Assembly (NCBI GenBank): GCA_951813015.1
Contig: CATOTG010000008.1
Location: 546,742-610,741, forward strand
Length of the DNA stretch: 64,000 bases
Reading direction: 5' to 3'
Source of the DNA: an uncultured Thermoanaerobaculia bacterium
GTDB taxonomy: Bacteria > Acidobacteriota > Thermoanaerobaculia > Multivoradales > Multivoraceae
Positions within the stretch are counted from its first letter, which is position 1. Every line of letters begins with the position of its first letter. Below the pieces are notes generated by a model, which saw nothing but the letters and a program-made list of their open reading frames with translations, was not told the DNA's origin and did no database searches. This document shows positions 3,001 through 63,499 of this stretch, piece by piece. Both the position numbers and the translations under genes were made by a program.

Positions 3001-5809
3001 CTGACTCATCCGCGGCAAGATCGGGAAACGGCAACAGTGCGGATCGCAGCAGGAAGCCGGTATCGTGCTCCTCCGACTCGCCCTCCCCGCCTGGCGAGTT
3101 CAGAATGGCTGCAGCCCGCCGAACGGCGCCGGCTGCGAGTGAAGATGCCGCCATCAGAAGGGTGTCCCCGCCGCTCTCCAGGGCCATCGCGTCCAGGCGT
3201 TGGAGAAGGTCCGCGGACTTGTGACGCAGGGTCTGGACTAACTTGGCGATGACTTGCTCGTGATGGTCGGTGTCGGGAGTACGCGCCGCTTCCAGGTCGA
3301 GATAGCGTTCCGCGAGGGAAAGCGGCTCTTCCAGATGTCGGCGAAACTGGACCAGGGTCTTCGCACCGATCCTCTGTTGGGATGACAGCAAGGCGGTGGC
3401 GAAGCGGTCGACGATCTTGCGAAGTTCGTCCCTGTCGGCCAGCTGTGCAGCCAGCCGCCGTACGATCGCGGTCTGTCCTCCTGAGCGCATGGCCTGCGTC
3501 AGGCGGCCGAGCTGATTGTCGTCCTGGCAGAGGACGTTCCAGATCCGGTTTGCCGGGATGTAGGTCAGCTTGCGCTGTTGCCCGATCTCCGACCAGCTCT
3601 CGAGGTCCTTGCGAAACGTCGCCACGGAGTCCTCGTGGCTCGCACGGTCGCGGGCGGTCCGGAGGATCGTGTCGGCGTCCAGGTGGGTCTTCTGGAGATC
3701 CCAGAGGCGATGGGCCACCGAAAATGTGAAGGCTCCCAATTCCTCGATGCCCTCATGCTCGAGGCGCCCGAGGTAGGCGGTGGCGCCGGAGTATGGGGCG
3801 ATCACCGCGACGGGCAGGGCGCCGGCGAGGCCGATGAGTGCGTTGACATTCCTTTCCGCGGGATCCCGGCGATCCTGGACGGTCGACTGGGCTTGCGCGA
3901 GCGCGGCCAGAACCGGCTCGACCAGCGGGCTGTCGGGCCGCTGGAGCCGACTGGCGTAGAGCGCGGCCGCCAGAGCCTGCGCCGGCGGCTGGCCGGCGTC
4001 GATTCCGGATTCTTCGGCGAGGCGGCACACCTCGTGGGCAAATGCGAGGCGGGGCGGGTCGTCGGTCAGCGCCTCAGCCATGGCATCGCGAACTCGCTGC
4101 TCCCGCTCGTCCCATTCGCCTCGGTCTGTTGCGTCTTCAGGCAGAGGGCCCTGGCACGTGGGCGACGCGCCGGGTTCGGACTCCTCAACATGGGCGTCGG
4201 GGCGGGGTGCGGCGGTTTCCGCATCTTCCGCCGGGGTCGGCTCGGACGTTGAGGAACCAGTGGCTTCACCGATCGACGAGTCGTCTCGACCCGGTACGGC
4301 CACGTGGAGGTCCGCGACGGAGTCGACCGGCGTCTCTTCCGCGGACGCGGCTTCTCGAGGAGGTGCATTGCCAGTTCGCGAATCTCCCCCAAGCCGTCCG
4401 CGCCGCGGCATGAACGCGGACTTCTCAATCCCGCCTGCCTCATCGGCCTCATCGGGATCGCACTCGGGTGTCCCGCGGTCTTCGCCTTTCCAGAGACCAG
4501 GCGCCGGATCGAGTGCGGCGAGAAGCCTGGCGCTGGCTTCGCGCGAGCTGCGCCGCGCCCGAACGGCCTGAATGCGCAGGTCGTCCCGCTGGTCTGCCCA
4601 GGAGGTGAGCGCTGCACCCTCTTCAGGTTTGGTTTGCCGCAGTCGGCTGAGTTGGCGTTCCAGGTCGCGGTGCGCGTCGTGGATCTCCCGCACCGTCTCC
4701 GCCAACGACGGCAGCGAGTGAGCCAGCCTTTCATGCTCGGACTTCGCCATCCCCGGTTCGATGCCGTGCGGCTCCAGCTCCAGCCAGAGGCGGCGCAGCC
4801 TTCCCACGCTCTCGGTGTCGACCAGGCCGCGACGGGAGTCCCCGACGAGTGCGTCGAGAAACTCGAGAACGAAACGCCGCAGCGTTTTCGCGCCTTCGTA
4901 CTCCAGTTCCTTCTTCCGGGATCGAACGGCACTCCGGAACACGTCCAGCCGCCCTTCAAGGGTCTTCGCAAGGCCGTGCAGGGAGTCCAAGGCCGCGGCA
5001 TCGTCCAGGGCGGCCGGAAGGCGGACGAGAGAGTCGAAGCCGGGCTCCAATGCAGTCTCGTGGGCGCGGGCGAGCCTCCTGGCAAGCTCCAGCTTCTGGT
5101 TGCCGGAAGACTCCGCGTAGAGCGCGGTCGCTCTGGCGAGCACCGCAGGGAGGTCGACCCCGACCTCAGGGTCGGCGAGGTCCGGCTCGTTGTTGCCCGA
5201 CTCGGCCCGGTGGTTCGTCCCCTCGCGCCCGGCATCGCTCCGGGTGACAAGATCCCGGAACTCTCGTCCCAGATCAGGCACCTTCCTCGACACATCCTCG
5301 AGGACGGTTCGATCGTCGAGGAGCGTCGCCTTGGCGAACAGCCAGAGCGTCACCTCGAGGCGTTCGGGATCGCTGAGCGATGACCAGCGCTTGATCCGGG
5401 ACGCCGTCGCTGCGGTGAAGCTGGCCGTCGTGACGTCTTCCGTGGGAGAGCCTTCGCTCGTCGGTTTCGCCAAGTTGCGATCCAGGAACGGTCCCAGGAT
5501 CTTGTGCTCCAGAGACGGCGGCACAGCGCGGATCGGTACCCTCTGCTTCCTCTCGACGGTCCTGAAGACGAGGTGAATGTTGAAGAGTTCGCGCCGGAAG
5601 TCAGGGTTGCCGTAGAAGGCCGCGAGCAGGGGCCAATCGGCGCGCTTCTTGTCGCCGATGTCGCCGACGCGCTGTCGAAAGAAGCCGCATTGCAGCAGCC
5701 TGCTTCTCGTTTGTCGGTTCAGTCCGAGCGGTTTCTCGAGTTCCTTCAACCCATTGAGACACTCGGGAAGCCCGAACCCCAGAGGTCTTCGGCGTTTCTG
5801 CTCCGGCAT
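1..5809 (-). CDS. Giant protein (>1900 aa) with C-terminal STAND/AAA-like ATPase domain; 3' end lies outside the window
   Basis: Manual minus-strand reading from ATG at 5809 (MPEQKRRRPLGFGLPECLNGLKELEKPLG...) stays open to the left edge in the stretches read. C-terminal part reads MFFGRDAEAEAIANFRGSCFVYGGRQLGKTALLRHVE (Walker A) ... RRLLLLFDEADNFLERD (Walker B). The true frame is absent from the ORF track because it has no stop within the window. Confidence 0.75.
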   Translation of the reverse strand, partial: MPEQKRRRPLGFGLPECLNGLKELEKPLGLNRQTRSRLLQCGFFRQRVGDIGDKKRADWPLLAAFYGNPDFRRELFNIHLVFRTVERKQRVPIRAVPPSLEHKILGPFLDRNLAKPTSEGSPTEDVTTASFTAATASRIKRWSSLSDPERLEVTLWLFAKATLLDDRTVLEDVSRKVPDLGREFRDLVTRSDAGREGTNHRAESGNNEPDLADPEVGVDLPAVLARATALYAESSGNQKLELARRLARAHETALEPGFDSLVRLPAALDDAAALDSLHGLAKTLEGRLDVFRSAVRSRKKELEYEGAKTLRRFVLEFLDALVGDSRRGLVDTESVGRLRRLWLELEPHGIEPGMAKSEHERLAHSLPSLAETVREIHDAHRDLERQLSRLRQTKPEEGAALTSWADQRDDLRIQAVRARRSSREASARLLAALDPAPGLWKGEDRGTPECDPDEADEAGGIEKSAFMPRRGRLGGDSRTGNAPPREAASAEETPVDSVADLHVAVPGRDDSSIGEATGSSTSEPTPAEDAETAAPRPDAHVEESEPGASPTCQGPLPEDATDRGEWDEREQRVRDAMAEALTDDPPRLAFAHEVCRLAEESGIDAGQPPAQALAAALYASRLQRPDSPLVEPVLAALAQAQSTVQDRRDPAERNVNALIGLAGALPVAVIAPYSGATAYLGRLEHEGIEELGAFTFSVAHRLWDLQKTHLDADTILRTARDRASHEDSVATFRKDLESWSEIGQQRKLTYIPANRIWNVLCQDDNQLGRLTQAMRSGGQTAIVRRLAAQLADRDELRKIVDRFATALLSSQQRIGAKTLVQFRRHLEEPLSLAERYLDLEAARTPDTDHHEQVIAKLVQTLRHKSADLLQRLDAMALESGGDTLLMAASSLAAGAVRRAAAILNSPGGEGESEEHDTGFLLRSALLPFPDLAADESEEDPVTPQATLDALLESTPLELPVAFEHYCERGDLLLAADIIDWLEAAAAEDDTQSLRNRIEEERHLCQRVLAAELLDIRQEVDLAFSRSRISANRNSSLLARLEAIQLESTENERPRYNLLRGESDAVRSDLEAAAREERDKLRQEVAASFPDDEAPLRKAIEQSLEDGDLLVANELLYRTPQDTPLPSRQSRPSTLQNYLDIDHDDLRSRVGLADNWTELIRSAASGQSHGPLRFDHLDESERASARALLEAWVALRNVPVGKPDRLARATTELMRSLGFIDPEVTFDSPVPGFVGARLKVAPIERREVCPLPHFGSEARGSYRLMLLLDPPEAEAIHQRMEQSRRQEAAIVVTLHALGRQTREQLVRSCLAKRTSLLTLDEPLLAFLAAQGGSRLAAFFACSLPYTYNQPFIRRASLVPPEMFFGRDAEAEAIANFRGSCFVYGGRQLGKTALLRHVERNYRGSGRFAIWIDLKAQGIGEIDTADIWPAIWSALRERRAIDDSVRKPTQRDESIRRFIKALHSTFNRDSGRRLLLLFDEADNFLERDTQNSSRESFAESARLKSLMDHDQSIKVVFAGLHNVLRTTNQSNHPLAHLGNPVRIGPFIDEGNQRHALDLLQGPLQACGFRFETERLAQRVLAGANYYPSLIQIYGDEIVARSLDSDKASVPRRITSDLLDSIDRDPDLQEDIRRRFEWTLQLDPRYEAIAYAIAFECHTNPNLLRHGMKDARIQRHARVWYEGGFPRLGGNMEFSSLLREMVDLGVLREIEEGGSHTLRNPNVLNLLGTSRDIENRLEDLSAGQRPLKLGPHDIRRHHVDKGPLHRPLTLWQERQVVGEPYGHGVIVLCGVEAAGIRNVGHFLAQGPIAARELPEADSVTEFKEHLRRRLQRRTRDGADTVVLTVSGNWKRDWVDVARRELERLSARPYARVVFVADMRKLFSLDMGADIPTWDLPPPDAREATVDLAQPAGRAVKAQTVFRAVRLEPWTLGFAAKWLD

Positions 5810-12572: not shown

Positions 12573-12660
12573 GGGCGGTTGGCCGCCTTCTAGCAGTCCG
12601 TGGCAGAAGTCGCGCTGCATTCGAGCGGCCATGCATCCCGCCCGGCATCGTGCTATTCGT

Positions 12661-12718
12661 GCGCCCGATGACGGGCGCACGGACTGGTTCGCGGGTGGCG
12701 CGGAGCGCGCCACCCGGG
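12661..12718 (+). repeat. REP-like element copy A (two adjacent hairpins)
   Basis: gcgcccgatgacgggcgcacggactggttcgcgggtggcgcggagcgcgccacccggg; stems gcgcccg/cgggcgc and gggtggcgcg/cgcgccaccc. Confidence 0.75.
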
Positions 12719-17465: not shown

Positions 17466-17497
17466 TGCCGGTCTCTCGCTGCCGGTCTCTCGCTGCC
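17414..17497. repeat. 14-bp tandem repeat, 6 units (ggtctctc[ag]c[ct]gcc)
   Basis: Contiguous units from 17414; a further degenerate pair near 17542-17575. Confidence 0.9.
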
Positions 17498-17571
17498 GCT
17501 CACTGCTGCGTCTCGATCGTGGCGAACGGAGCGTTCACGTTCACCTCTCACTGCCGGTCTCTCGCTGCGGC

Positions 17572-18396
17572 TCACTGCGGCTGTTGCCCGGTCACGACGC
17601 GCGACGCCTCGGGGCCAAGGGCCGGCGAAGCGGGAAGGTCGACTTCGTCCCGGAAACTGACCTCGATCCGATATCCCTCCACGTCCTCGCCGAACTGCGA
17701 CAGGAGGAACGTGCGAACGAAATCGGCCGTCCTGCGCCGCCCGAGTTCGCGCACCAGGGCGATGTTCTCGCCCGCGCGAGACGCCAACTGGTCCGTGATG
17801 CGGCGCCGGAGCCGCTCCAGGACCGCCTCCTCGTCGCGCAGGAGCGAATCCGCCTGGACCCGGTACTCGATCGCCGAAGTGTCCACGGCCGGCCGGTTTG
17901 CACGCACGCCTGGCGCCAGCACATGGACCGTCGTTCCGTCCAGGGTCAGCGACCACTCGTCCTCGAGGTCCAGGTAGTAGGTGTAGCGGACCGGAACCCG
18001 TGCCTCGACCATCACGTCAGGCAGCCTGAGCCGCCCCCACAGCAGGCTTGTCGAGTCCGTGCGCTGGAGCACCTCGATCTGGTCGAGAGAGGCGAATTGC
18101 AGGAAGGCGCTGCCCGAGACTTCGGTGGCGTAACTCAGAAAGGAGGTGTGGACGGTGCCCGTGTGGAACGCCTTCGCGATCCGCTCGACGGCAAGGGCGG
18201 CGTCGCGCGCGAGCTCGCGGCCGCTCTCCATTACCTCCCTGGGCAGCATGGTCGCTCGGATGACGAAGAAACTGATCACGATCGCCACGACCAACCCGAG
18301 GATCAGCGTGACGAACGCGAGCGGCCACAGAATCTGGCTGCGTGTGCGACCGGCGCCCGGTTTCCGCCGGCGTGGCTCGTCGTTCGCCTGATTCAT
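17572..18396 (-). CDS. Membrane-anchored hypothetical protein (DUF4230-like)
   Basis: N-terminal TM LWPLAFVTLILGLVVAIVISFFVI, then a soluble domain; the family suggestion is weak. Confidence 0.6.
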   Translation of the reverse strand: MNQANDEPRRRKPGAGRTRSQILWPLAFVTLILGLVVAIVISFFVIRATMLPREVMESGRELARDAALAVERIAKAFHTGTVHTSFLSYATEVSGSAFLQFASLDQIEVLQRTDSTSLLWGRLRLPDVMVEARVPVRYTYYLDLEDEWSLTLDGTTVHVLAPGVRANRPAVDTSAIEYRVQADSLLRDEEAVLERLRRRITDQLASRAGENIALVRELGRRRTADFVRTFLLSQFGEDVEGYRIEVSFRDEVDLPASPALGPEASRVVTGQQPQ

Positions 18397-23239: not shown

Positions 23240-24318
23240 GTGGACGGTTCCGGCGGCGCGGCTTCCACGATGTCGTCGGGCGGGAGGGCGAGCCCGCGGG
23301 CGAAGTCCATCGTCTCCCTGGCGAGGCGTTCGCGGTCGGCCAGCGTCTCCATCACCGTGCCGGTCACCAGGGTGGGGAGGCCGAGATTCTCGATTGCCGC
23401 CGCCTGCCCGGCATCGACGCGATCGATGACGAAGCCGTCGAGCAGATCCCGTTTCCGGTAGTGCCTGGCGACCCCGATTGCCGTGACCGGCATCCCGAGT
23501 TCCGCCATCATCTTGCCCGCGGGGCCCTTGATCGCCGCGCCGCCGACGATGGGTGAGACCGCGACGACGGGAACTCTTGTGCGGCGCAGGGCCCGCTCGA
23601 CGCCCGGCGCCGCGAGCACGGGATCGACGCTGACGAAGGGGTTCGAGGGGCAGATGACGATCGCCGCCGTCGCGTCGTCCTCGAGGGCGGCGAGGAAGTC
23701 CGGCGCCGGGCGGGCGGCATCGACGCCCGCAAAGCGGAAGCCCGTCACCGCCGGGGCGCAGCGGTCGCGGACGAAGTAGTGCTGGAAGCTCAGTTCGCCG
23801 TCCGGCGTGCCGACGACGGTGCGCACCGGATCGTCGCTCATCGGCAGCACCCTCGCTTCGACGCCGAGCGCCCGGCACAGCGCGTCCGTCACCCCGGTCA
23901 GGCTTTCGCCGGCGCGGAGTCTGCGGGTCCGCTCCACGTGGGTCGCCAGATCCCGGTCGCCGAGCCGAAACCAGGTCTCGCCGCCGAGCCTGGCAAGCGC
24001 CTCAAGGAAGGACCACGTTTCGTGCGCCTGACCCCAGCCGGTAACGCGGTTGGAGACGCCGGCCAGGGTGTACATCACCGTGTCGAGGTCGGGGCAGACG
24101 CGGAGACCGAGATGATCGAAGTCGTCCGCCGTGTTGCAGACGATCGTCAGGTCCTCCGGCGGCAGAACCCGCGACAGTCCGAGTGCGAGCTTGGCGCCGC
24201 CAACGCCGCCGGACAGCGCGAGGCAGCGGCCCGTGCCGAGGCCCGCCGGAACAGATTCCGGTTGCGAGTCGGCACTGCGCGTCCGGGCGCCCTCCGACGG
24301 CGACGGGCCGGTGCTCAC
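23236..24318 (-). CDS. cofD: LPPG:FO 2-phospho-L-lactate transferase CofD
   Basis: CLALSGGVGGAKLALGLSRVLPPEDLTIVCNTADDFDHLGLRVCPDLDTVMYTLAG. Confidence 0.95.
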   Translation of the reverse strand: MSTGPSPSEGARTRSADSQPESVPAGLGTGRCLALSGGVGGAKLALGLSRVLPPEDLTIVCNTADDFDHLGLRVCPDLDTVMYTLAGVSNRVTGWGQAHETWSFLEALARLGGETWFRLGDRDLATHVERTRRLRAGESLTGVTDALCRALGVEARVLPMSDDPVRTVVGTPDGELSFQHYFVRDRCAPAVTGFRFAGVDAARPAPDFLAALEDDATAAIVICPSNPFVSVDPVLAAPGVERALRRTRVPVVAVSPIVGGAAIKGPAGKMMAELGMPVTAIGVARHYRKRDLLDGFVIDRVDAGQAAAIENLGLPTLVTGTVMETLADRERLARETMDFARGLALPPDDIVEAAPPEPST

Positions 24319-25076
24319 CGGAACAGATCCTGGTTGCGAGGCCGCAGGAGCGCGCGCGCGTCCTGAGCCGGCCCGAGCTTCTTCAGGCCGCGGACGCGCA
24401 CCACGGGTGCGCCTTCGTCGCCCTCGCCCTGGACGATTTGGGCGGCGCTTGCGATCTGGTCGGCGATCCCGGTTTCCGATACCTGGAGTTCACGGCCGAA
24501 CCGGTCGCGGTCCCCGCGCAGGTCCCACAGGGCCGTCATGCCGGCGACGCCGATTGCCAGCCCGACGGTGCCGAGACGCCAGGCCCGTCCGACGCTGTCG
24601 TTGATCATCACGCCGATGTCCTCGACCCCGAAACGCGCCGCGAGCGCTTCACGCAGGGCCGCCGCCGAGGCGTCCGGATCCTCCGGCAGGAGCAGGGCGC
24701 AGCCGTGGTCGTCGCCGGGACGCAGGTTCGACTGATCGATCCCCGCGTTCGCCAGCACCAGGCCGAGCCGATGCTCGACGATGATGACCCCCGGCACGGT
24801 GCGGAGCACTGCGGTGGATTCGCGGAGCACGAGTTCGATCAGCCGCGGATCCTTGTCGCACTCCGCCGCCAGCCGCACGGCTTCCGCACGGGGTTCGACC
24901 GTCGCGAGTTCGACGATTCGGCCTTCGGCCTTGGAGACGATCTTCTGGGCGACGACGAGTACATCGCCGGCGCGCAGCTTCAAGCGCGCCCGGTGCATCG
25001 CTTCCGTGATCAGGAAGGCCAGGTCGTCGCCGGGTCGGACTTCGGGAAGGCCGGGTACGGACTGGATGCTCAACAT
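24315..25076 (-). CDS. cofE: F420-0:gamma-glutamyl ligase CofE
   Basis: GDVLVVAQKIVSKAEGRIVELATVEPRAEA...MINDSVGRAWRLGTVGLAIGVAG; 253 aa, so no FbiB-type C-terminal domain. Confidence 0.95.
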   Translation of the reverse strand: MLSIQSVPGLPEVRPGDDLAFLITEAMHRARLKLRAGDVLVVAQKIVSKAEGRIVELATVEPRAEAVRLAAECDKDPRLIELVLRESTAVLRTVPGVIIVEHRLGLVLANAGIDQSNLRPGDDHGCALLLPEDPDASAAALREALAARFGVEDIGVMINDSVGRAWRLGTVGLAIGVAGMTALWDLRGDRDRFGRELQVSETGIADQIASAAQIVQGEGDEGAPVVRVRGLKKLGPAQDARALLRPRNQDLFR

Positions 25077-25117: not shown

Positions 25118-25236
25118 GGATCGGAAGTTCGGAGGCCGAAGGGTACCCGTCGCCTCGGGTACTGCTCCCCCGCGGCCCACCACGTCTGCACCTCAGGATC
25201 GGAAGTTCAAAGGCCGAAGGCTACCCGTCGCCTCGG
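25118..25236. repeat. Direct repeat, 41 bp x2, period 78 bp
   Basis: ggatcggaagttc[ga][ga]aggccgaagg[gc]tacccgtcgcctcgg at 25118-25158 and 25196-25236. Confidence 0.85.
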
Positions 25237-25990: not shown

Positions 25991-26097
25991 CGGCGGCTTC
26001 CAGTGGAGTGAGTTGAAGTCGGGGCCTCACAGGCGAAGGCCCCACGGATGTGAGGGCGGGGATCGTATACCGCCCGATTCGGCTCAGCCTGCCTCTG

Positions 26098-26495
26098 CTT
26101 GCGCCGCCGGTGGGGCGTTACCTCGTTGACCGTGCAGCCTTCGGCGCCCGGCGGGGGCGTGCGGCTGCTGCTTGCGCCGCCGGTGGAGCGTTACCGCGTT
26201 GACCGTGCGGCCTTCGGCGCCCGGCGGGGGCGTGCGGCTGCTACTTGCGCCGCCGGTGGAGCGTTACCGCGTCGACCGTGCGGCCTTCTGCGTCCGGCGG
26301 GGGCGTGCGGCTGCTGCTTGCGCCGCCGGTGGAGCGTTACCGCGTCGACCGTGCGGCGTTCTGCGCCCGGCGGGGGCGTGCGGCTGCTGCTTGCGCCGCC
26401 GGTGGAGCGTTACCGCGTCGACCGTGCGGCCTTCTGCGTCCGGCGGGGGCGTGCGGCTGCTACTTGCGCCGCCGGTGGAGCGTTACCGCGTCGAC
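26098..26495. repeat. 73-bp tandem repeat, 5 full units plus partial
   Basis: Unit cttgcgccgccggtggagcgttaccgcgt[ct]gaccgtgcggcctt... starts at 26098, 26171, 26244, 26317, 26390 and 26463; the last partial unit is the 3' end of terC. Confidence 0.95.
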
Positions 26496-27258
26496 CTCCT
26501 GCTTTCGCTCCCACCAGTTCTGGTACAGGTCGAGCGCGAACATCAGCAGCAGGATGAAGATGACGATCCACTGCGGGATGTACGGGGTGGGGGCGCCGTT
26601 CACGGTCAGGTGCGCGCTGTGGCCCGCTTCGAGGATCAGCACGAAGCCGATCAGCAGGAGGACGAACAGGCCGAGGATCTCGAACTCGGGGTTGGAGCTG
26701 AGGAACCGCGAGATCGGACCGGCGAAGACCAGCATCAGCGCGACCGAGATGAGCACCGAGCCGACCATGACGGCGAAGATGTCCGTCATGCCGACGACGG
26801 TCAGGATCGAGTCGACGGAGAAGATCAGGTTCATGCCGACGATCAGGGTGACCACCTCGGCGAAGCGGCTTGCCTTCGCGACCCTCGTGCTCGACCGCCT
26901 TCAGCTTGATGCGCAGCTCCTTGATGCCCTTCCAGATCAGGAACAGGCCGCCGATCACGAGCACGAGCGACTTGCCGTCGACGCTGCCGGCCATCCCGAC
27001 GCCGAGGAACGCCCCGTCGAAGGTCCAGAGTTCGGTCGTCGCGGCCCCGAGCACCAGGCTCAGGATCAGCAGCAGCACGATGCGGAGCGCCATCGCCAGC
27101 ACCAGGCCGAGCTGGATCGCCTGCTTGCGCCGAGCGTCGGGCAGCTTGTTGGCGATGATCGTGATGATGATCAGGTTGTCGGCGCCGAGCGCAATCTGAA
27201 TCAGCGTGACCGAGAAAAGCGCCGCCCAGAAGGACGGCTGGCCAAGGAGTTCGATCAT
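26460..27258 (-). pseudogene. TerC family integral membrane protein, reading frame split by a frameshift near 26875
   Basis: MIELLGQPSFWAALFSVTLIQIALGADNLIIITIIANKLP...IKLKAVEHEGREGKPLR, then another frame: AEVVTLIVGMNLIFSVDSILTVVGMTDIFAVMVGSVLISVALMLVFAGPI...; both halves are TerC. Confidence 0.85.
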
Positions 27259-27438
27259 CGGCGCGCCCCGTGATTCGCGCGCCGGATGCGGTTACACTGC
27301 GCGCCCGTCCTCTTGCAGGCCTTGACCCTTGAACTCCCGCGCCAGGCGGTTCGGGCGCCCCCCGGGTTGCACGGCGAGTCCGTCCTCTTCCAACCCTTGA
27401 CCATCAGCAGCCGACCCTCCAGGAGACTGTTCTACGCC

Positions 27439-36413: not shown

Positions 36414-38693
36414 TCAGTACCTTCCGTTTCGCGGTGTGAAGGGCTCCGCTTGCTCGATGACCTCTTGCAGCTTTCCGAGCGACCGGGCGAACTCCTGGTT
36501 CAACTCCTCCTCGAAGCGGCGGAACTCAGCCAAACTGGCTCTCGCGTCCGCTTCGAGCTTCTTCCACGCTTCGCCCAGACGATGGTCGAGACCGCCGAAC
36601 CGCTCGACCAGATCTTGGAACTTCCGGGTCACCTGTTCAAGTGATCTCCGGGTTTCCTCCGCGGCGGCCTGAGAGTTCCGGACCGCGTCTGCCGTCGATC
36701 TCAACGTGGCAACAGTCTGCTGGGTGATCAGGCGAACGCCCGACTCCATTGCTTCCGCCGTGGTCGAGACCTTCTGTTCCATGGAACGGTTCGCCTCGAC
36801 CAGATCCGACACCGCGCCGCGAACAGGGAGGGCGGCCTGCGTCAGTTCCGTACTCGCGGAGCTCAGTCCGGCCGTCGCCCGGGTGATCGTGCGTGTGCCG
36901 CTATCGAGGGATTCGGCATAGCGGTCGACGGTTCCGACGGACGACGTGATCCGGGTCTGCAACTCGCCGATCGCGGCGGCAAGGTCCTTCAACTGGTCGA
37001 GCAGGTCGCTGCCAATGGCGGAAGAGGCCTCGCCTACGCGGTCGCGAACATCGCCGGCCATCCCTTTCATCGCCTGGGAAACCGCTTCCGCGGATGCTCC
37101 CAGGCCCTCGACAGCACGTAGGCTTGCTTCCTCGATCGTCCGGCTCCCCGCGGCGAACGCCGACTTCGACGCCTCGTCAGCTCGGGTCGCCAGCTTGTCC
37201 ACCGCCGCGGTCATTGCCGTGGCTGCGTGGTCGATGCCGTCCGCGCCGGCCTGAGTGCTCTTGCGGATCTCTTGAAGAGCATCCTCCATCGTGGCGCGCA
37301 TTCCCTGCGCGCCGTCCTGCAGGTTCTCGCTTGCCGCGTGCGTTGAACCGGCCACTGCCGCGGCCATCGCCGTGGCTGCTTTGTCGATGCCATCCGCACC
37401 GGCCTGGGTGCTCTTGCGAATCTCCTGGAGCGCTTCTTCCATCGTCGCGCGCATCCCTTGCGCGCCGTCCTGCAGGTTCTCCCTTGCAGCTTCCGTCGAA
37501 TCGGCCATGGCAGTTCTGAGGGAGAGGATTTCGCCGGCGAGCGCGCCGACTGCATGGTCCATCTGTCCGCCCATGGATACGGCCGAGTCGTCCAGCCGGG
37601 AGGCGACGTCGTTCAAGGTCTGGCCCACCCTGTCCATCGTCTCGCTGATGGCGCGAGCCGAGTCCTGGACACCGCCGCTCATCGTTTTCGACACGCCTGC
37701 GACCAGTGAATCGAGGCCTTTCCCTGCGCCTTCCTCGAACTTGGCCAGCGCAGGCCCCATCGCTTCCCGAATTGAGTCCCGCATCGCCTGGGGGATTTCC
37801 TCCCGCAAGGGCCGCGCCACCTGGGCGACGAGTTCCGTGCTAAAGGTCTGGAGGTGCGTCCCCTGCTCCTCGAGTACCTCGAGTACCTTCTCAAGCAGAA
37901 AGCTGTCGGCGCTCCGGTACTCGAATCCCCGCTCGATGTCGGCGCACAGGCCGTGCAGCGCTTCGTCGATCTTCCCCTCGCGCGTCCGGAACCAAAGTCC
38001 GAAAACGATGGAGCAGAAGAGGCCGGTGAGGGACATGATGAACTTTGCGCCGGCGACCTGGAGCAGGTTCCGGAGCCCTTCGCTCACGGTGTCCACCCCT
38101 GTTTCCTGGAGGATTCCGCGTGTCTGGTCGAGCGCCGCGACCAAGCCAAGGAATGTGAGCAGGAGCCCAACGGAGACGAACAGCGCAGGGAGCTGAGCGA
38201 AGAAACGATGCTCCATGTGGAGCAGTTCGCGGTCGAAGAACTCCCTCGGTCTGACCGTGTTGAACAGGCCCTTCTGGCGATTGACGGTCTCGGCGAACTC
38301 GCGCCAGGCCTCCCCGAGCCGGTGACGTGCCGTTTGCCTCGTGACGCTCTCCCACTTCTTGAAGGACTGGCTGATCTCGATGAACCGGGAGTCGTCGAAA
38401 GCAGTGTGGGTGTCGCCGATCACGGATCTGCTCTCGGCAATGGTCCTGAGCAGGCCTCGGGCGCGCCACGAATAGCTGATCAGCGCTGCAAACAGGCCGG
38501 CCATGAGCGCGAGCGAGACCCACCCGGGAGCTGCCTCGTGACGCAGCAGGCCGGCCAGCTCAAGAATCCAGTCGGCAAAAGCCTCCCCGAGGTTCAGACG
38601 CACGAGAGGTTCAGCTTCGGGCCGGTCGGCCACGCTGGGAGGGGCATCGTGTTCATCGGCGCGGTAGCGAGAGGAAGCGACGCAGGTTAGCAC
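36414..38693 (-). CDS. zorA: ZorA-like MotA/ExbB-type stator protein with long coiled-coil tail
   Basis: [30 protein letters not shown]...[45 protein letters not shown], then a long helical tail. The start is uncertain: GTG 38693, 38633 or 38603 are candidates; the ORF track extends to 38822. Confidence 0.88.
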
Positions 38694-46849: not shown

Positions 46850-47797
46850 ATGACGACGGCGCCTCCGCAACACGACGGCCTCCCGGCGGTCTCCCTCGCT
46901 GCGGTGCCGGGGCGCCGGCGGCTCACGCTCGACCTGGCGGCGGAGATCGAACGCCGTGGTTTCAGCGGCATCTACTGTCCCAGCATGGGCGACGGTCTGG
47001 CGCTTTGCGAGGCGATCGCGTTGCGCACGGAGCGCATCCATTTCGGCACCTCGATCGTGAACATCTACACCCGGCACGTGACCGAGTTCGCGCACACGGC
47101 GGCCTTCATTCACGAGGTGTCTCGGGGCCGCTTCCGGTTCGGCGTCGGCGTCGGCCATGCGCCGGCGCACGTTCGGTTGGGCGTCACCGTCGGCAAGCCG
47201 CTGTCCGATATCCGCTCCTTCGTCGAGGAACTGAAGGCGGCGCCTGGCGCCGGCGAACTGCCGCCGATTGTCCTTGCCACGCTGCGCGACCGGATGATCG
47301 CCACCGCCGCGGAGATCGGCGACGGCATGGTGTTCGCGAATGGCGCCCGCTCCCACATGGCGCATTCCCTGGCGGCAACGGGGGGAAGGGCCGCCGATCC
47401 CGACTTCTTCGTGGGCAACATGATCCCGACGGTCATCTCCGACGATCGTGATCTGGCGGCGGCCCGCAACCGCAAGACCCTGAGCCGCTACGTGCTGCTG
47501 CCGAACTACCGCAACTACTGGAAGGCGGCCGGCTACGTCGAGGAGATGGAGGCGGTGGAGCAGGCCGTCGAACAGGGCGAGATGGACCGCATTCCGGGGT
47601 TGCTGTCGGATCGCTGGCTGGCCGATTGCACGCTGTTCGGCGCCGCGGCGGAGGTGCGCGAGGGGGTCGAGCGCTGGTTCGACGCCGGTATCGGCACGCC
47701 GATCCTGGTGCCGTCGTCGGCGGCCGGCAACCAGATCAAGGCGTTCGAGGAGCTGTTCGCCGCCTTTGCGCAGGCGCCGGGGAGTCGGTCCGGATGA
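46850..47797 (+). CDS. LLM class (F420-dependent) oxidoreductase
   Basis: LTLDLAAEIERRGFSGIYCPSMGDGLALCEAIALRTERIHFGTSIVNIYTRHVTEFAHTAAFIHEVSRGRFRFGVGVGHAP. Confidence 0.88.
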   Translation: MTTAPPQHDGLPAVSLAAVPGRRRLTLDLAAEIERRGFSGIYCPSMGDGLALCEAIALRTERIHFGTSIVNIYTRHVTEFAHTAAFIHEVSRGRFRFGVGVGHAPAHVRLGVTVGKPLSDIRSFVEELKAAPGAGELPPIVLATLRDRMIATAAEIGDGMVFANGARSHMAHSLAATGGRAADPDFFVGNMIPTVISDDRDLAAARNRKTLSRYVLLPNYRNYWKAAGYVEEMEAVEQAVEQGEMDRIPGLLSDRWLADCTLFGAAAEVREGVERWFDAGIGTPILVPSSAAGNQIKAFEELFAAFAQAPGSRSG

Positions 47798-48024
47798 CCA
47801 CGCCAACGGGTCGCAGCTTGCCCCCCGCGACATCGGGCGCTTGCAGGCGCCGGCGTGTCGGTCCGGATGACCACGCCACCGGGTCGCAGCTTGCCGCCCC
47901 GCGACATCGGGCGCTTGCAGGCGCCGGGGAGTCGGTCGGGATGACCACGCCACCGGGTCGCAGCCTGCCGCCCCGCGACATCGGGCGCTTGCAGGCGCCG
48001 AGGAGTCTGCCTGGATGACCACGA
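47771..48024. repeat. 73/74-bp tandem repeat, 3 full units plus partial
   Basis: caggcgccggggagtcggtccggatgaccacgcca... starts at 47771, 47844, 47918 and 47992. Confidence 0.95.
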
Positions 48025-50185: not shown

Positions 50186-50950
50186 ATGAAGCGGCGAAGC
50201 GGCGAGGCACTGCTGCTTCAGACCATCGATCTGCACGAGCGGGATCGGATCGTTGTCTTTCTGAGCCGCGACTGGGGGTTGAAGCGGGGTGCTGCGCGCA
50301 GCGCCCGGGCCCGCTTCAGCCGTTTCGGCGGCGAGCTGCAGCAGCTCGCCAAGGTGCACCTGTCATGGTTCGAGAAGGACGGCCGTGACTTGGTGCGGCT
50401 CGGCGACGCGGAGATGATCAGGAGTCCCGGAGCCCTGCATGCCGACCTCGAGGGGATTCTCGTCTCTTCGTATCTCGCCGAGCACATGCAGGTCTTCGCC
50501 CAGGAGGACGAGCCCGAGAACCACCTCTACCGGCTCCTGGATACGACCGTGCAGGCGCTGCTCGCCGGCTGCGACCGCTCCCTGGCGGCTCGCTACCTGG
50601 AATGCTGGACCCTGCGGCTCTCCGGCGTGTTCCCGGCGCCCCGGCAGTGCCCGTCCTGCGGCAACGCGCTCGGAGACGAGGCGATGCTGGCGGTCGAAGG
50701 GCAAGGCCTGCTGTGTCCTTCGTGCGGCGCGGGGGCCGGCGCGAACCGGCGGATCGGCGAGCCGGCTCTCGCCTTCCTGCGCCGCATCGGCGGCGCCGGT
50801 CTGGCCCGGCTGCAGGAGAACGGAGGCGTCGACAAGTCGACGCTCAAGTCGGTCGAGGCGATTGCGCGCGAGGTCCGGCGGGCCTTCCTGGGCAAGGAAC
50901 TCAAGAGCTACGGCGTGATGCAGCGGACGCTGCGGGATGTCGCGCCGTGA
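50186..50950 (+). CDS. recO: DNA repair protein RecO
   Basis: TIDLHERDRIVVFLSRDWGLKRGAARSARARFSRFGGELQ...CPSCGNALGDEAMLAVEGQGLLCPSC. Confidence 0.9.
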   Translation: MKRRSGEALLLQTIDLHERDRIVVFLSRDWGLKRGAARSARARFSRFGGELQQLAKVHLSWFEKDGRDLVRLGDAEMIRSPGALHADLEGILVSSYLAEHMQVFAQEDEPENHLYRLLDTTVQALLAGCDRSLAARYLECWTLRLSGVFPAPRQCPSCGNALGDEAMLAVEGQGLLCPSCGAGAGANRRIGEPALAFLRRIGGAGLARLQENGGVDKSTLKSVEAIAREVRRAFLGKELKSYGVMQRTLRDVAP

Positions 50951-51100
50951 CGGTGCCGGCAGGGAACGCGGCGTTGGCGCGACGCGGCTGGAAGATGCCG
51001 CTGTTGGCGGGTCGGCGGGCGCCGTGACGGGGCAGGCAGGGAACCCGGCGTTGGCGCGACACGGCTGGAAGATGCCGCTGTTGGCGAGTCGGCGGGCGCC
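50947..51100. repeat. 77-bp tandem duplication (2 units) between recO and mutL
   Basis: gtgacggtgccggcagggaacgcggcgttggcgcgac... at 50947 and 51024; a third partial begins at the mutL GTG (51101). Confidence 0.95.
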
Positions 51101-53020
51101 GTGACGGGGCCGGAACCCAATGCGCCGCCGGCGCGCCGCCCGTTGCAGCGGCTGCCCGACACGCTGATCTCCAAGATCGCGGCGGGCGAGGTGATCGAGC
51201 GACCGTCGTCCGTCGTCAAGGAACTCGTCGAGAATGCGCTCGACGCCGGCGCCTCGCGGCTCGAGGTCGACCTGACGAACGGCGGCAAGGACCTGATCGT
51301 GGTCACGGACGACGGCAGCGGCATCGCGGCCGAAGAAGCGATCCTGGCGGTCGAGCGCCACGCGACGAGCAAGATCGGCTCTTTCGAGGACCTGCTCGAG
51401 GTCGCGACCCTGGGATTCCGGGGCGAGGCGTTGTCTTCGATTGCCGCCGTCTCGAAGTGCGAACTGCTCACGGCGCAAAGCCCCGGCGAGGGCCACAGGC
51501 TCCTGGTCGAGGGCGGGAAGGCAGCGGTCGATGAGCCGGTGAGCCGGCCGCGCGGGACGACGGTGAGGGTGGAGTCGCTGTTCTACAACGTGCCGGCGCG
51601 CAAGCAGTTCCTCAAGCGCACGGCAACCGAACTGCGGCATGCGACGACGGTGGTCCAGGGATACGCCCTGGCGCGTCCGGACGTGACCTTCGTTCTGCGC
51701 CACGCTCCCGACGGGGCGTCTCCCCCGCGAGAGCTTCTGCGCGCCCAGGCGACCGGAATCGACTCGGCCGGCCGGCTGGAACGGATTGCCCAGCTGTTCG
51801 GGCCCGATCTGGCGAGTCACCTGATTCCGCTGCCCGAGGCCAGGAGGCGGCAGGGCGTCGACGGTTTCGTCGGCGACCGCGAGACTTCCAGGGGCAGGCG
51901 GCAGTTCGTTTTCGTCAATGGTCGCCTGTTGCGCGACCGGGCCGTGCTCGCCATCTACTACAAGGCGGTTCGGGACTTGATGAAGGGCGACCCGGCGCCA
52001 GCCCTGTTTCTGTTCCTCGACGTGCCCCCGGAATCGGTCGACGTGAACGTTCACCCGCAGAAGGCGGAGGTCCGCTTTCGCGACGCGGCGATTCTCGGGC
52101 GGGTCGGCAGCGCGCTCCGCAGAGGGCTGGAGGCGGCAAAGGGTGAGGAGCCGGCGCCCCTGCGGGAACCTGGCGGACCGATGGCGCCCCCGGCCTGGAC
52201 CGGCGCCGGGCAGGTCCGTGAGACCCGACGCGCGGCGCCTTGGCTCGGCGCCGGCGCGGCGGGCGAGGCCCGTCGGGAGGAAGGCGCCGCAGCGCCCGAG
52301 GTTCCGAGCTGGGCGGCGGAACTTGCCGCGCGCTACGGCGGTAGCCGGCCGGGGCCGGCAGGCAAGCTGGCTGAGGTCGCCTACCGGCCGCAGCCTTCCT
52401 CCCCGGTCCCCCTGTCGGGGAAGGGCCGGGAGTCGCTCCGGCTGATCGGTCAGTACAAGGGAACGATGATCCTGATCGAGGGACCTGAGTCGTTGCTTGT
52501 CGTGGACCAGCACGTGGCCCACGAGCGCATTCTGTACGAGCGGTTCCGCTTCAGTCTTGCCGAGCAGGAGTCCAGGAGTCAGACGCTGCTCGTGCCCCGC
52601 GTGCTGGAGCTCTCCGCAGCGGAGAACGCGGCGCTGGCCGAGTGTTCCGCGGGCCTCGCGCGGTGCGGCTACTCGGTCAGCAGCCTCTCCGGCGGCAGCG
52701 CCGCGATCACCGCGATCCCCGCGGTGCTGCCGGACGCCGAGGCGGAGAGCCTGGTGCTCCGACTCGCGACTCGTGTCGCCGGCGGCGACGAGCTGCCGAG
52801 CGAGGAGGAGGCGCTGGCCGAGTACCTCCTGACCCAGCTGGCGGCCAGCCGCGCCTGCCGGGCCGCGGTCAAGATGCACCAGGCGCTGTCGGCGGAGAAG
52901 ATGGAGAGCCTGATCGGGGAGCTCTTTGCCTGCGAACACCCGTACACCTGCCCGCACGGAAGACCGGTCGTGCTGGAGTTGACCGACCGGGATCTCGAAC
53001 GGCGGTTCAAGCGCCGGTAG
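51101..53020 (+). CDS. mutL: DNA mismatch repair protein MutL
   Basis: LPDTLISKIAAGEVIERPSSVVKELVENALDAGASRLEVDL...DDGSGIAAEEAILAVERHATSKI...GFRGEALSSIAAVS. Confidence 0.97.
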   Translation: MTGPEPNAPPARRPLQRLPDTLISKIAAGEVIERPSSVVKELVENALDAGASRLEVDLTNGGKDLIVVTDDGSGIAAEEAILAVERHATSKIGSFEDLLEVATLGFRGEALSSIAAVSKCELLTAQSPGEGHRLLVEGGKAAVDEPVSRPRGTTVRVESLFYNVPARKQFLKRTATELRHATTVVQGYALARPDVTFVLRHAPDGASPPRELLRAQATGIDSAGRLERIAQLFGPDLASHLIPLPEARRRQGVDGFVGDRETSRGRRQFVFVNGRLLRDRAVLAIYYKAVRDLMKGDPAPALFLFLDVPPESVDVNVHPQKAEVRFRDAAILGRVGSALRRGLEAAKGEEPAPLREPGGPMAPPAWTGAGQVRETRRAAPWLGAGAAGEARREEGAAAPEVPSWAAELAARYGGSRPGPAGKLAEVAYRPQPSSPVPLSGKGRESLRLIGQYKGTMILIEGPESLLVVDQHVAHERILYERFRFSLAEQESRSQTLLVPRVLELSAAENAALAECSAGLARCGYSVSSLSGGSAAITAIPAVLPDAEAESLVLRLATRVAGGDELPSEEEALAEYLLTQLAASRACRAAVKMHQALSAEKMESLIGELFACEHPYTCPHGRPVVLELTDRDLERRFKRR

Positions 53021-61252: not shown

Positions 61253-63499
61253 TCAAAGTCCCTGACAGGCCCTGAGACCTACCGCAAGGCCCACTACCAG
61301 TAGACCGGCCAGCACGGTCACGGCCGCAGGCCAACTTGACCTACGCGGCCTACACACCTTGAGCAGGCCGTGACTATTCGTCCAGTGGAGGACTTCGCTG
61401 GTTCGGGTGGAGATGGTGACGCTGTCGCTGTACTCGTTGTCGTCGTCGTTGTAGAACCAAGTGACCGGCCCAAGCTCACTATCCCTATCCCGGTTGGTCC
61501 GGTTGGGGGGCCCCTGAAGGCGGAGCACGTCGTCTGAGTCGGAACCCCGAGTGAAGTGTTCCGCATCCGTCTCGCTGCTTTCTGGCGGAAGTCGCGCTTT
61601 GAGTTGGCCGCTGCGGTTCGTCCAGTGGAGGACTTCGCTGGTTCGGCCGGAGATCGTGACGCTGTCGTCTTCGCCGTAGAGCCAAGTCTCAAATCCTGGC
61701 TGGATTCCCGGATGCTCGAGTTTGATCCGGGTCGGTGTGCCTTGAAGGCGGATTACGTCGTCCGCGTGTGAACCGTAGGTGAAGTAGTCCGCGTCCGTCC
61801 CGTTGCTCCCCGGCAGCAGCCGCACTTTGAGTTGACCGTTGGGGTTGTTCCAGGCAAGGACCTTTTGGCTTCGGGACGATACTTGAACGGTGCCCAGGCC
61901 GTAGTGCCAGATATCTGGAAAGTTCTTTCCATGCCTGTAAAGACAGATGGGTGTGCCTTGAAGGCGGATTAGGTCGTCCGCATGGGAACCGCGGGTGAAG
62001 TAGTCCGCGCCCGTCCCGTTGTTTCCTGGCAGTAGCCGCACTTTGAGTTGGCCGGTTTCATTCTGCCAGTCGAGGACTTCCTGGGTTCGGGTGGAGATGG
62101 TGATGCAGTCCGGTGGGGTGTGGTAGGACTCCTCTCTCTCGCCGTATAACCAAATCTCCTCTCCTCGCCGTAAGTCCCTGCCGAGAGTGATGGGTGTGCC
62201 TTGGAGGCGGATCACGTCGTCCTCATGGGAACCGCGGGTGAAGTGGTCCCCGTCCGTCCCGTTGTTTCCTGGCGGCAGCCGCACTTTGAGTTGGCCGCTG
62301 AGATTCTGCCAGCCAAGGACTTCGTGAGTTCGGGGGGAGACGTAGACGCAGTCGCACCCGGCGTAGCCCCACAGGTCTATTCCTGGCTCCAGGTGGCTGA
62401 GTGAGATGGGTGTGCCCTGAAGACGGATCACTTCAGTCGCCTGGGAACCGCGGGTGAAATAGGAGCTCCCGCCACGGTCGCTGCGGGAGGTAGTCCCAGC
62501 CCCTGTGCGTGCCGACTGCCCCGGGGTCTCGGGCGGGGGCGTCTTCGGAACGCTGTCGGCCGCCGCTGTCTCGGCCGCCGGTGGGCCGGTCGCCGAGCTC
62601 AGGCTCCTGCGCCAGGTCCCGACGTCCTGGGGGCGGTGCTCGGGCCTCACGGCGAGTCCATTGTCGATGGCCGTTAGCCAGTCACCGTCGGCTTCGCCCA
62701 TGCGCTCAGCCAGCGGTTGGCAGTCGTCGTTCAGCATGCGATCCGGCGCGCTCGGCACGGCGTCTCCCGTCAGCACCCGATAGGAGACGGCGGCCAGAGC
62801 GTAGATGTCGGCGGGCGGACCCTGGGACGCCCCGGTGGAGTACTGCTCGATTGGCGCGTAGCCGGCCGTCAGCACTTGGGTGTGCGTCCGGTCGCCGTGC
62901 TGCACCCGGGCGGCGCCGAAGTCGATCAGCACGGGTTCGCCGTCTTCGGCGCGGACGACGATGTTTGCCGGCTTGATGTCGCGGTGCAGGTAGCCGTGGC
63001 CGTGCACGTGGGCCAGGCCGTCCGTCAGCGCCTCCAGCCAAGGGCGCCACTCGCCGGGCGGCAGCGTGCTTCTCCGGTCGAGGAGGGCCTTCAGCGATTC
63101 GCCTTCGACGTACTCCATGACGATGTACGCGGTGCCGTTCGCTTCCAAGTAGCGGTGCGCCCGGACGACGTTTGGGTGTCGTAGCCGGTGAATGGCCCGC
63201 GCCTCGTCCAGGAAGCGCTCGAGACCCCAGGCGAAGGTCTCTTGGTTCGTTGTTGCCGTGGCGGCAACCCTCTCGCCGCCCACACGGGTCGCGAGCTGGG
63301 CGGGGAAGTACTCCTTGAGAGCGACCGGCCCGTCCAGTTGATGGTCGAACGCCAGGTACGTGATGCCGAAGCCGCCCGCTCCGAGCACGCGAACGATCTC
63401 GTACTCGGCTATGCGGCGGCCGGGCGGAAGCGCAGCGGAAGGGGCCTCGGGCGACGTGCTGGACAACGCGGCGGACTGTAGCAGCGCAACGGCGGCCAT
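61253..63499 (-). CDS. Ser/Thr protein kinase with five tandem sensor-like repeats and C-terminal TM
   Basis: VLGAGGFGITYLAFD...VALKEYFP...LHRDIKPANIVV...LIDFGAAR; five copies of FTRGSHADDVIRLQGTP...W.YG...VTIS.RT.EVL.W.N..GQLKVRL; C-terminal AAVTVLAGLLVVGLAVGLRA. Confidence 0.93.
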   Translation of the reverse strand: MAAVALLQSAALSSTSPEAPSAALPPGRRIAEYEIVRVLGAGGFGITYLAFDHQLDGPVALKEYFPAQLATRVGGERVAATATTNQETFAWGLERFLDEARAIHRLRHPNVVRAHRYLEANGTAYIVMEYVEGESLKALLDRRSTLPPGEWRPWLEALTDGLAHVHGHGYLHRDIKPANIVVRAEDGEPVLIDFGAARVQHGDRTHTQVLTAGYAPIEQYSTGASQGPPADIYALAAVSYRVLTGDAVPSAPDRMLNDDCQPLAERMGEADGDWLTAIDNGLAVRPEHRPQDVGTWRRSLSSATGPPAAETAAADSVPKTPPPETPGQSARTGAGTTSRSDRGGSSYFTRGSQATEVIRLQGTPISLSHLEPGIDLWGYAGCDCVYVSPRTHEVLGWQNLSGQLKVRLPPGNNGTDGDHFTRGSHEDDVIRLQGTPITLGRDLRRGEEIWLYGEREESYHTPPDCITISTRTQEVLDWQNETGQLKVRLLPGNNGTGADYFTRGSHADDLIRLQGTPICLYRHGKNFPDIWHYGLGTVQVSSRSQKVLAWNNPNGQLKVRLLPGSNGTDADYFTYGSHADDVIRLQGTPTRIKLEHPGIQPGFETWLYGEDDSVTISGRTSEVLHWTNRSGQLKARLPPESSETDAEHFTRGSDSDDVLRLQGPPNRTNRDRDSELGPVTWFYNDDDNEYSDSVTISTRTSEVLHWTNSHGLLKVCRPRRSSWPAAVTVLAGLLVVGLAVGLRACQGL

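Follow-up and report, generated by a model that had tools for sequence, protein, structure and literature searches.

A tandem array at the junction of two genes

How does a gene junction come to carry several copies of its own stop and start signals? This question is raised by an array between the genes for a luciferase-like monooxygenase (LLM, PF00296; positions 46850–47797, plus strand) and RidA (PF14588/PF01042; 48015–48482, plus strand) in a 64,000-nucleotide stretch of DNA, hereafter the window, which corresponds to positions 546742–610741 of contig C8 in a 4.32-Mb draft genome of 14 contigs. The closest named relatives of the source genome are Thermoanaerobaculia/Holophagales MAGs (Acidobacteriota), and many such MAGs originate from sponges.

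The array (47770–48023, plus strand) has the form R-S-R-S-R-S-R, in which R denotes a repeat and S the segment between its copies; it consists of three units (73, 74 and 74 bp) and a partial copy of 33 bp at its end, and Tandem Repeats Finder (TRF) reported a period of 74, 3.4 copies and 93% matches. The first R copy (47770–47802, plus strand) is recognisable over 33 bp and holds the LLM stop codon (TGA, 47795–47797) within an ATGA, the first S copy (47803–47842, plus strand) is 40 bp long, compared with 41 bp in units 2 and 3, and the last R copy (47991–48023, plus strand) holds the RidA start (ATG at 48015) within another ATGA. One ATGA is found per unit, at 47794, 47867, 47941 and 48015. 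The first-pass annotation was thus correct that ggATGACcac occurs in every unit, with the first TGA serving as the LLM stop and the last ATG as the RidA start. Its description of an array running exactly from stop to start was slightly too strong: the array is real, as confirmed by TRF and by direct reading, and takes in the last 28 bp of LLM, stop codon included, and the first 9 bp of RidA. A 74-codon relay open reading frame that begins at the first ATGA and ends at the last is predicted from the sequence (47794–48018, plus strand), and stop/start coupling between LLM and RidA could persist through it.

We compared this junction among 21 genomes of the genus. Where it was readable, the array was carried only by the draft genome and by OX638294.1, an independent single-contig assembly (G001, listed also as G022), in which its total length is equal, and the remaining readable junctions were short and without units. 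In both carriers, the LLM frame extends beyond the stop used in congeners to the TGA within R. The array is approximately 3.2 units longer than the corresponding junction of the congener G002, and in the relatives whose junction is empty, divergence is too great for an empty site to be defined base by base. Tandem repeats are easily misassembled, and our genome is a 14-contig draft; however, the LLM-RidA array and two further arrays of the window, described below, recur in OX638294.1, and an assembly artefact is therefore extremely improbable.

Further repeats in the window and their resemblance to MIRUs

The first-pass annotation had counted at least seven gene-junction repeats in the window, which is roughly right. 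Besides the LLM-RidA array, three are clear: an array between recO and mutL (50942–51113, plus strand; 77-bp unit, 2.2 copies), an array adjoining a terC-like gene (26095–26496, plus strand; five 73-bp units and 37 bp), and a single R(41)-S(37)-R with a minus-strand gene on either side (25118–25236, plus-strand coordinates). The recO-mutL array has a GTGA in each unit and is approximately 2.1 units longer than its counterpart in G002; its residual repeat is approximately 18 bp, so that an R-S-R origin is less clear. Three weaker loci, all in plus-strand coordinates, were found at 24246–24340, over the overlap of a cofD-like gene and cofE (offset 72, 23-bp repeat), at 27290–27402 (offset 75, R of 38 bp, S of 37 bp) and at 17473–17578, an ambiguous candidate mixed with a 14-bp simple repeat (offset 72, repeat of 34 bp). 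The window also contains, at 37199–37507 within a minus-strand gene, a 153-bp tandem duplication with a length divisible by 3 and two copies that are 85% alike.

Units of 73–77 bp at ATGA or GTGA resemble MIRUs (PMC12548453), which are likewise units of 70–80 bp that lie at stop/start overlaps and preserve the signals of the junction at either side. We therefore considered a MIRU-like dispersed repeat family that inserts at such overlaps. This is hardly credible, since the units are unrelated between loci and the 254-bp LLM-RidA array has no second place anywhere in its own 4.32-Mb draft genome. Unlike MIRUs, the loci have no sequence in common and consist of unrelated fragments inserted with target duplication, and their placement at a stop/start overlap, as at LLM-RidA and recO-mutL, is not general. 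Because each locus has its own R and S, we rejected a dispersed element of this kind.

A genome-wide class of R-S-R loci

We compared 2.05 Mb (47%) of the 4.32-Mb genome with itself at fixed offsets and, after removal of true CRISPR arrays, leucine-rich-repeat genes and one dispersed family, identified 86 scattered and mutually unrelated R-S-R loci (hereafter, scars), 60 of them single and 26 multi-unit. Extrapolation to 4.32 Mb gives approximately 180 loci. Offsets of 70–78 bp far exceeded every other offset, and on contigs C8 and C1 we found 96 repeats at offsets of 70–80 bp, compared with none in codon-shuffled sequence, so repeats of the LLM-RidA type do not arise by chance. R has a modal length of 37 bp and is nearly constant (mostly 36–38 bp), S is unique and variable in length (mostly 34–41 bp), and both differ at every locus. 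The proposal of a genome-wide process is thus borne out by the number of loci and by the sharp peak of unit lengths; the process itself is not junction duplication, because a segment from elsewhere has been inserted together with a target duplication of approximately 37 bp.

Two other repeat types were observed in these data. A six-copy tandem array at C8:351221–351633 (locus L019) belongs to a dispersed intergenic family with units of approximately 60–70 bp and the core CCCGGGTGGCGCG, and is not of the R-S-R form; this family has many copies genome-wide, with a related single copy near window positions 12658–12718. Inside predicted genes at C8:307266, C8:69944, C8:93085 and C1:52220, we observed tandem repeats of 66 bp that are related between these loci and contain the palindrome CGTTCCCGCGGGAACG.

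We then examined placement relative to gene boundaries, as defined by a simple in-house gene caller. Loci within coding sequences amounted to 21%, compared with 72.5% under random placement, whereas loci spanning gene boundaries amounted to 42%, compared with 15.5%. Among in-gene insertions, 18 of 20 had offsets divisible by 3, so that the frame was kept. Non-coding loci were distributed over co-directional, convergent and divergent gaps (45, 13 and 10 loci in 196, 68 and 97 kb, respectively) roughly according to the share of sequence. The enrichment anticipated at stop-start junctions is accordingly present at gene boundaries, but convergent and divergent gaps are also used. It can be attributed to selection against damage, aided by the duplication itself. 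Where R lies over a stop/start overlap, as at LLM-RidA and probably also at recO-mutL, the left copy keeps the end of the upstream gene and the right copy the start of the downstream gene; a target duplication of approximately 37 bp across such a junction copies both signals, and the neighbouring genes therefore survive without any need for a coupling function.

These distributions bear on the idea that ordinary tandem duplication of approximately 73 bp of junction DNA was kept for translational coupling through repeated stop and start codons. The repeated ATGA and the predicted 74-codon relay frame at LLM-RidA, and the GTGA in each recO-mutL unit, would fit such a process, and at least one locus (C8:434759) is indeed a plain duplication of a segment that is single in relatives. 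However, the 60 single loci duplicate R alone, around a unique S, and at co-directional junctions unit lengths of 2 mod 3 are not clearly favoured, nor was a frame preference found that would point to selection for chained stop/start relays; we accordingly did not retain relay selection. Together with the use of convergent and divergent gaps and the evidence on S presented below, this makes junction duplication very unlikely as a general explanation.

An empty site and the sources of the inserts

One scar could be compared with its empty site. In G001, positions 566832–566941 read R(38)-S(34)-R, whereas the draft genome has a single R without S at C8:563289–563328, and the flanks are 99.5% identical. 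The 34-bp insert (G001:566870–566903) is identical to positions 585725–585758 of contig C6 in the draft genome, a segment that is glmM-like by translation. The allele of this source site in G001 itself has three mismatches to the insert, which may have been captured from the DNA of a related strain or may derive from an older event.

We searched for further sources in the 47% of the genome covered. A second place for S was found for 13 of 60 inserts (at least 28 bp, at least 90% identity), compared with none for shuffled inserts and 0–3 for R and flanks as controls. In 16 aligned cases, the match between insert and source extends over approximately 30–38 bp and the source flanks are unlike the target, and in most single scars the match starts or stops close to the borders of R. 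Two such segments lie in the window: 4558–4594 (minus strand) is the source of the insert in the scar at C8:481873–481980 (94.6% over 37 bp), and 63402–63437 (plus strand) is a source-like segment whose copy is part of the unit in the C6:270491 array (97% over 36 bp). Since S is absent from the empty site and has a distant source, simple tandem duplication of junctions was rejected for most loci.

Several searches gave negative results. No shared homology was found at the insert joins, and no obvious PAM-like motif was found in the flanks of 10 sources, a small sample. For most of the very recent inserts, no source was identified: four had no distinct source in their own genome at up to three mismatches, and viral contigs contained no exact match to three recent inserts that lacked a self match. 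For the S of the LLM-RidA array, no source was found in the sequence searched. A candidate self source at C14:5912 for the insert at C3:7202 was rejected, as it proved to be a second copy of that R-S-R.

Changes in unit number

Between the draft genome and G001, the number of units differs with S unchanged at two loci of the window. The terC-side array has five units and 37 bp in the former and two units and 37 bp in the latter, and the locus at 25118 is R-S-R in the former and R-S-R-S-R in the latter, with an identical S. Outside two true CRISPR arrays, no locus combined copies of one R with more than one kind of insert. We examined whether scars grow into new CRISPR arrays and rejected this, as no additional R accompanied by a different insert was found. 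The multi-unit arrays, some of which retain residual repeats of only 0–22 bp, are best read as scars that have been amplified, presumably through recombination between R copies.

Resident CRISPR-Cas systems and a motif at the scar borders

The genome encodes two CRISPR-Cas systems, of type III-B (cmr3, cmr6/cmr1, csx1, cas1, cas2) and type I-G (csb2, cas3g, cas4, cas1, cas2), and both adaptation modules are intact. In the type I-G locus (L036, C7:12360–14381), cas4 and cas1 overlap but are encoded as two genes, whereas the NCBIfam model describes a Cas4/Cas1 fusion. The native arrays have 37-bp repeats with spacers of 36–40 bp (CRISPR1) and 35–37 bp (CRISPR2) and a period of 71–77 bp. The scars thus share with the organism's own type I-G and III-B arrays a repeat of 37 bp, an insert of 35–40 bp and the period; unlike these arrays, they have no common repeat sequence, no leader and no adjacent cas genes, and their multi-unit forms hold one and the same insert.

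The borders of R provide a further link. In 7 of 47 loci, one border of R has AGCA immediately outside it, compared with 0.32 expected, although this motif is missing from the R borders of the LLM-RidA array. The leader-repeat boundary of the type I-G array (CRISPR2) is AGCA|GTGTCGCC, and scar borders prefer AGCA|G. The similarity between scar borders and the leader-repeat boundary corresponded to z = 6.3 for CRISPR2 and 2.2 for type III-B, and the preference is limited to approximately positions –4 to +3, with a weaker signal at +6. The border motif therefore points to the type I-G rather than the type III-B system as the probable source of the activity. Among true CRISPR spacers, no full-length self match was found; self-derived spacers would appear to be purged from working arrays and tolerated elsewhere.

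We also compared genomes with and without cas1, which is absent from G002 and G003. At offsets of 68–79 bp, G001, which carries cas1, contained 13 R-S-R loci in 400 kb, whereas none was found in 400 kb of G002, the one cas1-less genome compared at length. Separately, distant Cas1-like proteins of at least 300 residues with two weak PF01867 pieces were observed in G022/G001 (C1:1728894–1729475), G014 (C4 and C27), G020 (C15) and G012 (C125); these are possibly solo Cas1 relatives.

Ectopic spacer integration as the most probable explanation

From the observed geometry and recurrence of the loci, the clean empty site, the self-derived inserts, the border motif, the resident cas genes, the absence of scars from one cas1-less congener and the changes in unit number, we infer that Cas1-Cas2 is the agent. 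It is highly likely that the scars reflect a genome-wide process in which Cas1-Cas2 integrates spacers ectopically and units are in some cases amplified afterwards. The adaptation complex (Cas1-Cas2 with Cas4, most likely of type I-G) would capture a DNA fragment of approximately 36 bp, which would enter non-CRISPR chromosomal DNA by two staggered attacks approximately 37 bp apart, and gap filling would then duplicate the target to yield R-S-R. At LLM-RidA, the target would have spanned the junction, so that each R would carry the ATGA of the LLM stop and the RidA start; the left R would have kept the end of LLM and the right R the start of RidA. Recombination between R copies or slippage would later have raised the number of units to three with S unchanged. 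The LLM-RidA array thus probably began as R-S-R, and we regard it as a good candidate for an amplified ectopic spacer insertion, with less certainty than for the genome-wide pattern on which this reading rests.

Another agent might make R-S-R loci, such as repair of staggered breaks (overhangs of approximately 37 nt) with capture of filler DNA, replication that switches template to a remote site and then returns, or an integrase not yet known. The inserts copied from distant sites and the four very recent inserts without a known source would fit such agents, and the link to Cas1 is a computational one. However, the repeat is near-constant at approximately 37 bp around a variable insert, as in CRISPR arrays, the joins lack shared homology, the borders bear the motif of the resident CRISPR leader-repeat boundary, and no scars were found in the cas1-less congener. 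We accordingly consider another agent rather unlikely.

Relationship to known systems and implications

Non-canonical (off-target) spacer integration by Cas1-Cas2 was reported by Nivala et al. (2018, doi 10.1038/s41564-017-0097-z). Such events reportedly resemble the scars, in that spacer-sized DNA is placed at leader-repeat-like sites outside CRISPR arrays with a preference for G at the attacked position. In vitro, the off-target sites of Streptococcus thermophilus Cas1-Cas2 mimic the leader-repeat junction with a preference for G (Kim et al. 2019, PMC6895254), and this mimicry concerns the same stretch as the preference at scar borders. The known events reportedly involved overexpressed or purified Cas1-Cas2, whereas the scars number approximately 180, by extrapolation, in a wild genome; the scars further differ in that many inserts are self-derived and some have been amplified into tandem arrays where two genes meet. 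In the literature, we found no account of off-target integration accumulating naturally to such an extent.

Casposons also combine integration by a Cas1-family enzyme with target-site duplication. Their target duplications are short, approximately 14 bp, and they contain genes and terminal inverted repeats, whereas the scar inserts are 34–41 bp long and without genes.

Because spacers that target the host itself do harm, survival acts as a filter on those in CRISPR arrays. Scars at ectopic sites are not subject to this filter and could therefore directly reveal which DNA is sampled by the capture machinery and the frequency of its misses. The scars also offer a concrete origin for junction-spanning tandem repeats, which are usually left unexplained. 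If the reading of ectopic integration is true, the length of the scar repeat would be expected to track the length of the native repeat and the presence of cas1 across genomes, and an immune 'recorder' would act as a natural genome-wide mutagen. We consider it likely that, in nature, the CRISPR adaptation complex of this organism is an insertional mutagen of this kind, one that has left approximately 180 insertions with 37-bp target duplications, lengthened proteins in frame by approximately 24–26 residues, seeded tandem repeats at gene junctions, and kept a record of capture, largely of self DNA, that immunity has not filtered.
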